From contig NZ_CP021106.3 of NCBI RefSeq assembly GCF_000355765.4, positions 777,137 to 841,136 on the forward strand: a DNA stretch of 64,000 nt. Reading direction: 5' to 3'. The stretch comes from Nitrosospira lacus. Lineage in GTDB: Bacteria > Pseudomonadota > Gammaproteobacteria > Burkholderiales > Nitrosomonadaceae. Under the pieces are notes generated by a model, which was not told the origin of the DNA, did not search any database, and saw only the letters and a list, made by a program, of their open reading frames with translations. Of the stretch, positions 36,013 to 39,233 are shown piece by piece. The position numbers and the translations under genes were made by a program. How positions within the stretch are numbered: the stretch's first letter is position 1; each line of letters begins with the position of its first letter.

Positions 36013-36393
36013 ATGTCTAAAAGAAAATCCATTATTTCCATAGCCGTTGGTTCTGCTTTTGCCGTTAGCCTCGGTGGCGCACCGGTCGTTTTTGCCGCTG
36101 ATAGTCCCTTTGCCATGCAATCTCTCGACAGGGGCTACATGGTTGCCGACGCGCATAAATATGGCGAAAAGAAAAGTGGAGAAGGTAAATGTGGCGGTCA
36201 GGGCGCTTGCGGCGAAGGGCGGTGTGGCGCGTCCATGGCGGACGCAAATAATGACGGTAAAATCACCAAGGAAGAATGGACCGCGCATCATAACGCCATG
36301 TTCGAACATATGGATGCCAACAAAGACGGCTTTATCAGCAAAGATGAGATGAAGGGCAAAATGAAGGACGGCAAGTGCGGGGGCAGTAAGTAG
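36013..36393 (+). CDS. Exported EF-hand protein with EGKC/EGRC motifs, candidate bufferin/HvfA-type metallophore precursor
   Basis: A 126-residue exported protein. The signal peptide covers residues 1 to about 28 (cleavage near VFA-AD). A Gly/Cys-rich core follows, with EGKC at 57-60, Cys66, and EGRC at 68-71; a DGKC lies at 119-122, giving four cysteines in all. Two perfect EF-hand loops, 77-88 (DANNDGKITKEE) and 101-112 (DANKDGFISKDE), should bind calcium. In the known HvfA/bufferin families, cysteines in EGKC(G) motifs are converted to thiooxazole-type rings by a DUF692 (MNIO) enzyme and the mature product binds copper. A DUF692 gene and a DUF2063 gene lie directly downstream, so this is probably such a precursor. 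The EF-hands are an unusual addition. ACAGGAG gives a strong start. Confidence 0.8.
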   Translation: MSKRKSIISIAVGSAFAVSLGGAPVVFAADSPFAMQSLDRGYMVADAHKYGEKKSGEGKCGGQGACGEGRCGASMADANNDGKITKEEWTAHHNAMFEHMDANKDGFISKDEMKGKMKDGKCGGSK

Positions 36394-36547
36394 GGAAGAG
36401 ATAATTCCTGGTATTTATTCCAGCTGGGGACGATTTTTTCCAAGCGTGGCTTCTGCACGAGAAAAGTCGATCCCTCGGCTAACCACGCCCTCCAATCGCT
36501 CTCGAATTGTGACATAATATTTTCTCCAAAATTCAGGAGAAGATATC

Positions 36548-36958
36548 ATGCGCAACAAGAAAACCATGATTTCCCTAGCGGTGGGTTCCGCTTTTGCCGC
36601 CGCACTTGGTGCGGCACCGCTCGCCTCTGGAGCTGACAGTCCTTTCATCGTGCAATCCCTGGATAGGGGTACCATGCTCGCGTATGCAGACAGGGTGGAC
36701 CCCAATAAATATGGGGGCGGCGCAAAATCCGGCGAAGGCCGATGCGGCATGTCGATGGTGGACACCAATAAGGATGGCAAGGTCACGAAGCAGGAATTTC
36801 TGAAGCATCACGAAGCCATATTTGACAGGATGGATACCAACAAAGATGGTGCTGTCGACCAGCCTGAGGCAGACAGCTATGGAGGCGCCAGACCCAGCGG
36901 TGCACCCCATGCACCCGGTGCACCCGATACTGCGCCGCATGGCGGTATGAAAAAGTAA
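36548..36958 (+). CDS. Second exported EF-hand protein with a single EGRC motif, paralogous candidate precursor
   Basis: A 136-residue paralogue of the preceding gene. The N-terminal parts align closely (AVGSAFA, ADSPF, QSLDRG shared). A signal peptide covers residues 1 to about 29. It has only one cysteine, Cys66 in EGRC (63-66), then two EF-hand loops at 72-83 (DTNKDGKVTKQE) and 96-107 (DTNKDGAVDQPE). The tail is Pro/His/Gly-rich (APHAPGAPDTAPHGG) instead of the DGKC tail of the first copy, and such a His-containing tail could itself bind metal. It has its own strong ribosome site (CAGGAG) after a 154-bp gap and ends 13 bp before the DUF692 gene, so it is the more closely coupled of the two to the modifying enzyme. 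Confidence 0.78.
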   Translation: MRNKKTMISLAVGSAFAAALGAAPLASGADSPFIVQSLDRGTMLAYADRVDPNKYGGGAKSGEGRCGMSMVDTNKDGKVTKQEFLKHHEAIFDRMDTNKDGAVDQPEADSYGGARPSGAPHAPGAPDTAPHGGMKK

Positions 36959-36971
36959 TTCCTGATCCTTG

Positions 36972-37823
36972 ATGGAATCCCTAGGCCGTGCCAGTGTGGG
37001 ACTGGGCTTCCGGCGGGAACTCATTCCCGAGCTAAAAATACGTGTCCCTGCCGCTATTGATTTCTTTGAAATAGCCCCGGAAAACTGGATTGATTTCGGT
37101 GGCGTGGCGGGACGGGATTTGCGCCGCTTCACGGAGCGCTATCCCTTCGTCTGCCACGGACTCTCACTTTCCATTGGTAGCCCGGCCCCGTTGGATGAAG
37201 TATTACTGCACAAGATTCGGCAATTCCTGGATCGGCATCAGATTTCCCTTTATACGGAACATCTCTCATACTGTTCCGATGATGGCCATCTCTATGACCT
37301 GCTTCCAATACCCTTTACCGAAGAAGCGGTGAAATATGTCGCCGCACGCATTCGCCGTGCTCAAGATATCCTGGAGCGTCGTATTGCGTTGGAAAATGCA
37401 TCGTTTTATGTGCGTGCACCCATTGCCGAAATGAGTGAAGCGGATTTCATCCGTGCCGTATTAATCGAAGCGGACTGCGACCTGCATCTTGACGTTAACA
37501 ATGTGTACGTCAACAGCGTTAATCATGCTTGTGATCCCATCGAATTTATCTGCGCGATGCCTACGGAACGCATTGTCTACATGCATATGGCCGGGCATTA
37601 TAATGAAGCGAAGAATCTGATTATCGACACGCATGGCGCGGACGTAATCGATCCGGTATGGTCATTGCTTGATTATGCTTACCACATACACGGGGTGGCC
37701 CCCACGTTGCTGGAGCGCGATTTCAACATTCCCCCCCTACATGAACTGATGCGTGAGGTCGAACGCATCGGTCTTATTCAGACTCGGTATGCAGGTATCA
37801 GCCATGTCCGCGCCGCTCCCTGA
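36972..37823 (+). CDS. DUF692 multinuclear non-heme iron oxidase (MNIO, BufB/HvfB-like)
   Basis: A 283-residue TIM-barrel enzyme of the DUF692/MNIO family, which holds two or three iron ions and modifies cysteines of ribosomal peptides. Conserved metal-ligand segments are visible in order: [65 protein letters not shown] and LERDFNIP. Upstream lie two EGKC/EGRC precursors, and downstream is an overlapping DUF2063 gene, the standard HvfB-HvfC or BufB-BufC pairing. The frame opens at a TTG (36969) immediately before the chosen ATG. Substrate and product are inferred from context. Confidence 0.9.
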
Positions 37824-38562
37824 ATTTCAGCGCTTCCAATACGCCTTCGCCGCACATATCCGTGACCCGAAGGCAAATGCCTGTCCACGGGGTGTTGAAG
37901 CGACGCATATGCGGATATATACAAGACTGGTTTACAACAATGTCGAGAATTTCTTATTGACCTGCTTTCCCGTGCTCAGAAAAGTACTGGGAACGCGCCG
38001 CTGGAAACGGGTCGTGCGCGCTTTTCTTGCCACACATCGCAGCCGCTCACCTTTTTTCAGGGAAATACCTGCAGAATTTATCCAGTACCTGCAAGCGGAG
38101 TGGAAGTCACCCCCAAACTATCCAGAATTCATGCTGGAACTTGCACACTATGAATGGATAGAACTGGCGCTTTCCGTTTCAATGGATGGTCCGGACTGGG
38201 ATCATATCGATCCCGATGGCGGCCTGCTGGAACAACGACCCGTTCTGAACCCGGTGCTCGCCAATCTGTGTTACCGGTGGCCGGTGCATCGTATCCGCCC
38301 GCGCGCTCGAGTCATGCCGATAGAGACCTGCTTACTGGTATTTCGCGATGCCACCGATCAGGTCCAGTTCAGTGAGATCAACGGGTTTACGTCGCGCTTG
38401 GTCAGCCTATTAGAGACTGCCGAGCATACAGGTCAAACGGCACTCGAAATTGTCGCTGCGGAAAGCCGCCATCCCTCGCCCGAAGTCGTGATTCAAGGCG
38501 GATTGGCAATTATGCGCGACTTACAGGCACGAGGCGCGCTGCTGGGCGTTTTGCGTGAATAA
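37804..38562 (+). CDS. DUF2063 protein (BufC/HvfC-like partner of the MNIO enzyme)
   Basis: A 252-residue protein with the DUF2063 domain at the N-terminus ([40 protein letters not shown]), which in studied systems presents the precursor to the MNIO enzyme. A second domain occupies about residues 150-250. The frame extends upstream to 37753 inside the DUF692 gene. The ATG at 37804 was chosen because it follows AGG at suitable spacing and gives the normal family start. It overlaps the DUF692 gene by 20 bases and the next gene by 1 base, so the three genes are translationally coupled. Confidence 0.88.
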
Positions 38563-39233
38563 TGAATGATCCTGATCCGGAGTTGATCAGGGATGGCATG
38601 AAGCGCAACCCGCTGGATCCCAAAACAATTTCTTATCTCACGCTCGCCCACTACAACGAGCATGCCGAGCATTTCTGGGAAGGAACAAAAGATCATGACG
38701 TCAGCCAGAATATCACGGCGCTGCTGAGGTGTATCAAGGGTCAGCCTCCTTACGCCGTACTAGATTTTGGCTGCGGCCCGGGCCGCGATCTCAAGGTGCT
38801 TACCGAACTCGGCCATATCGCGGTTGGACTTGAGGGTGCCCCGCGCTTCGTTGAGATGGCTCGCAGCCATGCCGGTTGTGAAGTATGGTGTCAGGATTTT
38901 ATGGGACTCGATCTGCCGCATGAATACTTCGACGGCATATTCGCGAATGCCTCGCTGTTTCATGTTCCTGGATGTGAGCTGCCGCGTGTGCTGGCAGAAT
39001 TGTGTAACACGCTGAAGCCGGATGGCGTGCTGTTCAGTTCCAACCCGCGCGGAAATGACGAAGAGGGCTGGACCCACGGGCGTTATGGTGTATATCATGA
39101 TATTGAAAGATGGCGAGGTTATATGACCATTGCCGGGTTTGTCGAAATTACCCACTATTACCGTCCAGCTGGCCGGCCGCGTGCCCAGCAGCCGTGGTTT
39201 GCCAGCGTATGGCGCAAGGCGGCGATGGAGTAG
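38562..39233 (+). CDS. Class I SAM-dependent methyltransferase, coupled to the MNIO genes
   Basis: A 223-residue methyltransferase with motif I VLDFGCGPGRD (about 67-77), the acidic residue after strand 2 (VGLEGAPRFVEMAR), FANASLFHVP and LKPDGVLFSSNPRG. The substrate is not evident. Its ATG overlaps the DUF2063 stop (TAATG), which indicates translational coupling to the preceding cluster. It may therefore act on the same peptide, but the family also includes many small-molecule enzymes, so this is inference. An alternative start is Met13. Confidence 0.82.
   Translation: MNDPDPELIRDGMKRNPLDPKTISYLTLAHYNEHAEHFWEGTKDHDVSQNITALLRCIKGQPPYAVLDFGCGPGRDLKVLTELGHIAVGLEGAPRFVEMARSHAGCEVWCQDFMGLDLPHEYFDGIFANASLFHVPGCELPRVLAELCNTLKPDGVLFSSNPRGNDEEGWTHGRYGVYHDIERWRGYMTIAGFVEITHYYRPAGRPRAQQPWFASVWRKAAME

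Follow-up and report, generated by a model that had tools for sequence, protein, structure and literature searches.

The enzymes of captophorin clusters (HvfABC/oxazolin, fontiphorin, and gonophorin) install 5-thiooxazole, and their products bind copper (PMC13097082, PMC13419390). The precursors of these clusters carry a signal peptide and EGKCG repeats without EF-hands. Bufferins Buf1 and Buf2 have the general order of precursor, MNIO, and DUF2063 genes and are exported by Sec. Precursors in which the cysteine motif is joined to EF-hands have also been described. Antoine et al. treated EGKC/EF-hand_5 chimeras in 2025 as a subtype of Buf_EGKCG/oxazolin precursors and mentioned EfhP (PMC12452194); these chimeras combine a signal peptide or N-terminal hydrophobic segment, a short EGKCG region, and two EF-hand_5 domains with MNIO and DUF2063 neighbors. 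EfhP of Pseudomonas aeruginosa (PA4107; PMC4053335, PMC9132961, PMC11559002) binds calcium, as measured, and has an EF-hand pair and EGKCG motifs, of which four repeats were reported in 2024 (PMC11559002); its DUF692 and DUF2063 neighbors were reported by the EfhP group in 2014 (PMC4053335).

We analyzed a related cluster in a 64,000-nucleotide stretch of the Nitrosospira lacus genome, referred to as the window. A sequence-only reading of this DNA had called the EF-hand fusion unusual. It is not, because the class of EF-hand precursors beside MNIO genes was published in 2024 and 2025 (PMC11559002; PMC12452194). The new details are a precursor form with one cysteine, a fixed spacing between this cysteine and the EF-hands, and the disappearance of the cysteine from relatives in which the enzyme has been lost. 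Cysteine register and cysteine loss are not described in PMC12452194.

The Nitrosospira cluster and its family

The host genome contained three matches to AMO (PF02461). These three AMO-subunit genes, together with the named relatives Nitrosospira and 'Nitrosovibrio', identify the host as an ammonia oxidizer, which had earlier been a guess. The cluster is real and conserved, and its gene order on the plus strand was as first read: two small precursors, an MNIO, and a DUF2063 partner. A methyltransferase gene follows.

36013..36393, plus strand: precursor A1, HvfA-like, 126 aa; EF-hand_5, 49.4 bits; NF050137 (KCGExKCG_twice), 19.7 bits against a cutoff of 19.5
36548..36958, plus strand: precursor A2, 136 aa; EF-hand_5, 39.0 bits; NF050137, 14.2 bits, under the cutoff
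36972..37823, plus strand: HvfB-family MNIO maturase, 283 aa; PF05114, 347.7 bits; NF003818, 430.4 bits against 360; 3bww
37804..38562, plus strand: HvfC-family partner, DUF2063/NGO1945_C, PME type 1; DUF2063, 88.1 bits; NGO1945_C, 82.3 bits; NF050145, 271.6 bits against 142
38562-39233, plus strand: class I SAM methyltransferase, starting 1 nt inside the hvfC stop

The MNIO gene starts with ATG at 36972 and the partner gene with ATG at 37804, overlapping the end of the MNIO gene by 20 nt. Promoter and terminator scans at the cluster returned nothing above chance, and upstream words common to relatives were mostly the ribosome-binding site. The methyltransferase was rejected as a tailoring enzyme. 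No such gene adjoins hvfC in L060, L061, genus g2, or Nitrosomonas-type genomes, and a gap usually separates the two; as the synteny holds in most of the genus and breaks down outside it, the gene is probably a bystander.

A1 consists of a Sec-type N terminus, a DSPF..QSLDRGYMVA block, a cysteine cluster, two EF-hand loops starting at D77 and D101, and a C-terminal cysteine. Three of its four cysteines, Cys60 (EGKCG), Cys66 (QGACG), and Cys71 (EGRCG), had been recognized before; the fourth, Cys122 in a C-terminal DGKCG, had been overlooked. A2 shares the N-terminal blocks, has loops starting at D72 and D96, and ends in a Pro/Gly/Ala-rich tail with a final HGGMKK. Its sole cysteine, Cys66 (EGRCG), lies six residues ahead of EF loop 1. 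Both precursors scored above the Pfam EF-hand_5 cutoff of 25.9 bits, and two EF loops arose in none of 20,000 shuffles of either protein, which bears out the two loops first read in each. Taken with conservation in 23/23 genomes of the genus, the shuffles show that the EF-hand genes are not due to chance.

The sequence-only reading had placed the cluster among HvfABC/BufABC systems and had proposed an HMM search of the small proteins. This search supported EF-hand_5 in both and the HvfA KCG domain model in A1, if barely, but not in A2; an EG[KRN]CG motif occurs in both, and the Pfam search gave no DUF2282 match in either. HvfB and HvfC equivalogs were passed, whereas the MNIO reached 264.4 of the 310 bits set for the BufB equivalog NF050167 (MNIO_BufB). 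The HvfABC half of the assignment is therefore supported and the bufferin half is less apt, and HvfABC/captophorin is the better name since the MNIO falls under the BufB cutoff. Within the MNIO, Arg14-Arg15 (GLGFRRE) and Asp250-Phe251 (LLERDF) correspond, as matched by motif rather than structure, to FonB R15, R16, D249, and F250. These have been reported as Lys-Cys-type specificity and catalytic residues, and the match supports placement in the Lys-Cys class.

The gene order is that of captophorin clusters. Unlike captophorin precursors, those of N. lacus have fewer cysteines and an added EF-hand pair, and doxX (HvfX) was not found within the cluster; the single DoxX of the genome is located at C1:2437562, away from the cluster. 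The cluster has the features of the Buf_EGKC|EF-hand_5 subtype, i.e., an EGKC motif and two EF-hand_5 domains beside MNIO and DUF2063, as judged by these features and not by the authors' HMM. It differs from the published chimeras in having two tandem and two unlinked precursors in one genome, a universal precursor with a single cysteine at a fixed register to EF loop 1, and an extra cysteine after the EF pair of A1. As set against the authors' description of EfhP, A2 has one EGxCG motif instead of four EGKCG repeats. We consider it likely that the cluster is an HvfABC/captophorin-type RiPP cluster of this published subtype, a degree of confidence that applies jointly to the whole explanation given below.

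Linked and unlinked precursors

An MNIO 76 to 92% identical to that of the window was found in 23/23 genomes of the host's genus, each with at least one EF-hand precursor beside it, and EG[KRN]CG was kept in all 23. The proposed survey of DUF692 neighborhoods for EF-hand precursors was thus positive throughout the genus, and also in Thiobacillus-type genomes, whose MNIOs are mostly 73 to 81% identical. The one-Cys A2 type adjoins hvfB in nearly all genomes of the genus. The first precursor varies: it can be a multi-Cys EF-hand protein or a plain EGKCG peptide of 74 aa that lacks EF-hands (L008, L010, and L011), or it can be absent. In most Nitrosomonas-type genomes (g3), HvfA is of the plain multi-EGKCG kind and the accompanying MNIO is about 60% identical. 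A single clade (SH-aLRT, 98), with 36/36 rows EF linked, united the EF-linked MNIOs from Nitrosospira, genus g2, and most Thiobacillus. EF-hand precursors extend to more distant gammaproteobacterial families, where the EF pair is often flanked by EGKCG on either side. With regard to a single origin versus repeated gain of the EF-hands, parsimony on the MNIO tree gave at least five changes, and the starred branches force only one.

Several other arrangements were observed in these genomes. Some Nitrosomonas-type genomes (L071, L241, and L243) have a Nitrosospira-type hvfB, 78 to 84% identical, with no precursor directly upstream; their EF precursor is found at a distance of 7 kb, downstream, or on a different contig. 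Nitrosomonas-type genomes (L169-L182, L250, and L251), whether or not they encode an MNIO, also have separate EF-hand proteins that are His rich and carry HGHQC ahead of EF loop 1. Proteins resembling Spy/LTXXQ carry the N-terminal block of the precursors (KKSIISIAIGSAFA...QSLDKGFMLA) at L191, L192, L247-L249, L184, and L052; in G028 and G037, such a protein lies about 2 kb upstream of a divergent MNIO. L184 and L052, from the same two genomes, contain a further MNIO cluster, whose small precursor is Buf1-like in appearance and whose partner is DUF2063-like. In G087, an ECF sigma factor-like gene and a small possible anti-sigma gene were seen by eye upstream of a plain HvfA (L072:5268-6157, reverse-strand open reading frames).

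The host genome encodes one MNIO, one DUF2063 protein, and four EGxC/EF-hand precursors at three loci. Two of the precursors are unlinked to the cluster.

C1:3098100: unlinked precursor with EGKCGGEGTCGEGRCG plus an EF pair
C1:2824343: unlinked precursor with one cysteine, EGRCGMSMAD

These two paralogues, at L286:4601-4963 and L285:4724-5203, have housekeeping surroundings, and no copper genes were recognized around them among open reading frames read by eye. Across the genus, the unlinked one-Cys paralogues have long variable flanks and an unchanged EGRCG[MI][SA]MAD block. In G111, hvfB has no precursor next to it, the EF precursor being on another contig. Modification in trans is therefore likely, and a single HvfBC pair probably serves all four precursors, judging from gene content. 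The sequence-only reading would have been undermined by EF-hand homologues occurring widely without DUF692 neighbors and with the EGKC motif not conserved. The former are indeed common, even in the host genome, but the motif is strictly kept in the MNIO-unlinked homologues of the genus and was lost in a sister genus without hvfB, as described below.

Register of the cysteine and the EF-hand pair

In 71 distinct EF precursors from Nitrosomonadaceae and Thiobacillaceae, a cysteine occupies exactly position -6 relative to Asp1 of EF loop 1, whereas the linker ahead of this cysteine is variable in length. Sequences of distant gammaproteobacterial precursors showed the same register in five cases (L256, L257, L259, L263, and L266) but not in L258, L261, and L270. 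Since A2 and the unlinked paralogues have one cysteine at this fixed C-G-x4-D register, the modified ring and the calcium site would probably be parts of one structural unit. The full-length AlphaFold model of A2 was poor (pLDDT, 48.6). A model of the EF pair (pLDDT, 78.8) placed the cysteine immediately ahead of the short helix that enters EF-hand 1, at the margin of the confidently modeled region.

The identity of the metal in the EF-hand pair was also considered. The loop starts are 24 residues apart in 103/105 cases, and short loop spacing is common to lanmodulin-type proteins. The closest solved profile match was lanmodulin, and a lanmodulin had the best TM-score in the fold search (TMq, 0.64), at a nonsignificant E value of 0.37; this PDB search with the EF-pair model gave no match below an E value of 0.001. 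A metal other than calcium, such as a lanthanide or Mn, is nevertheless very improbable as the ligand. The loops are canonical (DxNxDGx[IV]xxxE) and lack a proline at loop position 2, which is the mark of lanmodulin, and scores of 26.1 and 24.0 bits were far from the 135 bits of the lanmodulin equivalog NF053806.

Loss of hvfB and the proposed two-metal site

A sister genus with small genomes (g4) retains an orthologue of A2 with both EF loops, and in 7/7 genomes read (G025, G028, G031, G034, G040, G043, and G046), which are not independent samples, the cysteine at position -6 is a tyrosine. The change from Cys to Tyr is a single-base transition and, being common to one sister clade, may reflect a single event. 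The G025 orthologue is 57.8% identical to A2, and an HGxMKK tail is common to three g4 genomes. No MNIO was found in six of the seven by protein and Pfam searches; the only MNIO of the remaining one, G028, is 32% identical and has its own Buf1-looking precursor. The cysteine and the preceding Glu-Gly were lost together in g4 genomes without HvfB. Mean identity in the core motif was 0.70 for the A2 set and 0.41 for g4; the corresponding values for the EF pair were 0.80 and 0.68. A relic of the partner gene was found in G025.

L163:399-637, minus strand: hvfC pseudogene of G025, immediately past the EF gene in which Cys is replaced by Tyr; hvfB is deleted

The pseudogene consists of two fragments in different frames, corresponding to HvfC residues 101 to 131 and 206 to 252 (E values, 4e-4 and 4e-11). 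In G028, a 19-residue hvfB-like piece with a stop at the expected hvfB start (E value, 0.27) is no more than suggestive.

Within the family, an EGxC-EF protein was found in 40 genomes, again not independent, of which 38 have HvfB (at least 59% identity) and 2 do not. One of these two, G110 (99% complete; 110 contigs), encodes a one-Cys EGKCG EF protein and no MNIO and is a true exception unless the assembly misses the gene. The other, G106, is 80% complete.

The explanation that we favor, and regard as probable, is that HvfB and HvfC produce a cysteine-derived thiooxazole copper site beside a calcium-binding EF-hand pair. HvfC would recognize the precursors, probably via the conserved N-terminal PF..xSLxxGYMxA block, and HvfB would oxidize the cysteine of EG[KR]CG to 5-thiooxazole in the cytoplasm, ahead of Sec export. 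In the periplasm, the modified cysteine would bind copper, probably Cu(I). The EF-hand pair would fold the protein next to this cysteine and would bind Ca(II), which may hold or tune the EF domain. Such maturation is supported by relatives with the same enzyme pair, whose products contain 5-thiooxazole and are copper binders (PMC13097082, PMC13419390); we infer the copper link itself from these characterized relatives. The sequences themselves establish the genes, their families and conservation, the register, and the joint loss of the cysteine and hvfB. The absence of DoxX from the cluster, the poor full-length model, and the retained EGKCG cysteine of G110 and, at lower completeness, of G106 weaken this explanation.

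The main doubt about maturation concerns the one-Cys precursor. In a published assay, FonBC acted on a substrate with two repeats but not on one with a single repeat (PMC13097082), and A2 is therefore not assured of being modified. The need for two EGKCG repeats, the score of A2 under the HvfA domain cutoff, and the retention of the cysteine in G110 without any MNIO speak for a reading in which modification is confined to the multi-Cys A1 and the EGKCGGEGTCGEGRCG paralogue. A2 and its one-Cys paralogues would then be unmodified calcium proteins, their free cysteine serving a disulfide dimer, redox chemistry, or metal ligation. We hold this to be unlikely, as A2 immediately precedes hvfB in almost every genome of the genus and is sometimes the sole precursor, and the entire E-G-x-C-G context is kept rather than the cysteine alone, with Glu-Gly disappearing along with it where HvfB is missing.

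The precursors might instead act mainly as calcium sensors or buffers like EfhP, with the thiooxazole used for iron or redox sensing and not for copper buffering. EfhP binds calcium and affects iron-uptake regulation, and its authors proposed dual Ca/Fe sensing through EGKCG (PMC11559002); moreover, conservation is higher in the EF loops than in the remainder of the protein, and the loops outlast the maturases. We nonetheless judge this improbable, because all tested thiooxazole products of the enzyme class bind copper (PMC13097082, PMC13419390) and the surroundings of the cluster and of the unlinked paralogues showed no link to iron genes. Published ammonia-oxidizer proteomics (PMC5960693) contained nothing on these proteins.

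Extending the favored explanation, the thiooxazole of one-Cys proteins could be a metal site built in fixed register on EF-hand 1 rather than a means of bulk copper storage, such that calcium gates or positions copper or copper reports calcium; in maturase-less relatives, the ring would have given way to tyrosine, leaving a calcium-only protein. This is speculative, and we regard it as rather doubtful. If it is true, the proteins would form a family of two-metal periplasmic switches, encoded at unlinked loci and served by one maturase pair.

Predicted MNIO clusters number in the tens of thousands. EF-hand fusions could be tested compactly in this lineage, where one modifiable cysteine has a constant spacing to a calcium loop and a single maturase pair faces several unlinked substrates. 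Its natural relatives, which lost the maturases and the cysteine and kept the EF-hands, provide a loss series. As the host lives on a copper enzyme, the handling of copper in its periplasm, in which these proteins may take part, is of direct physiological interest.
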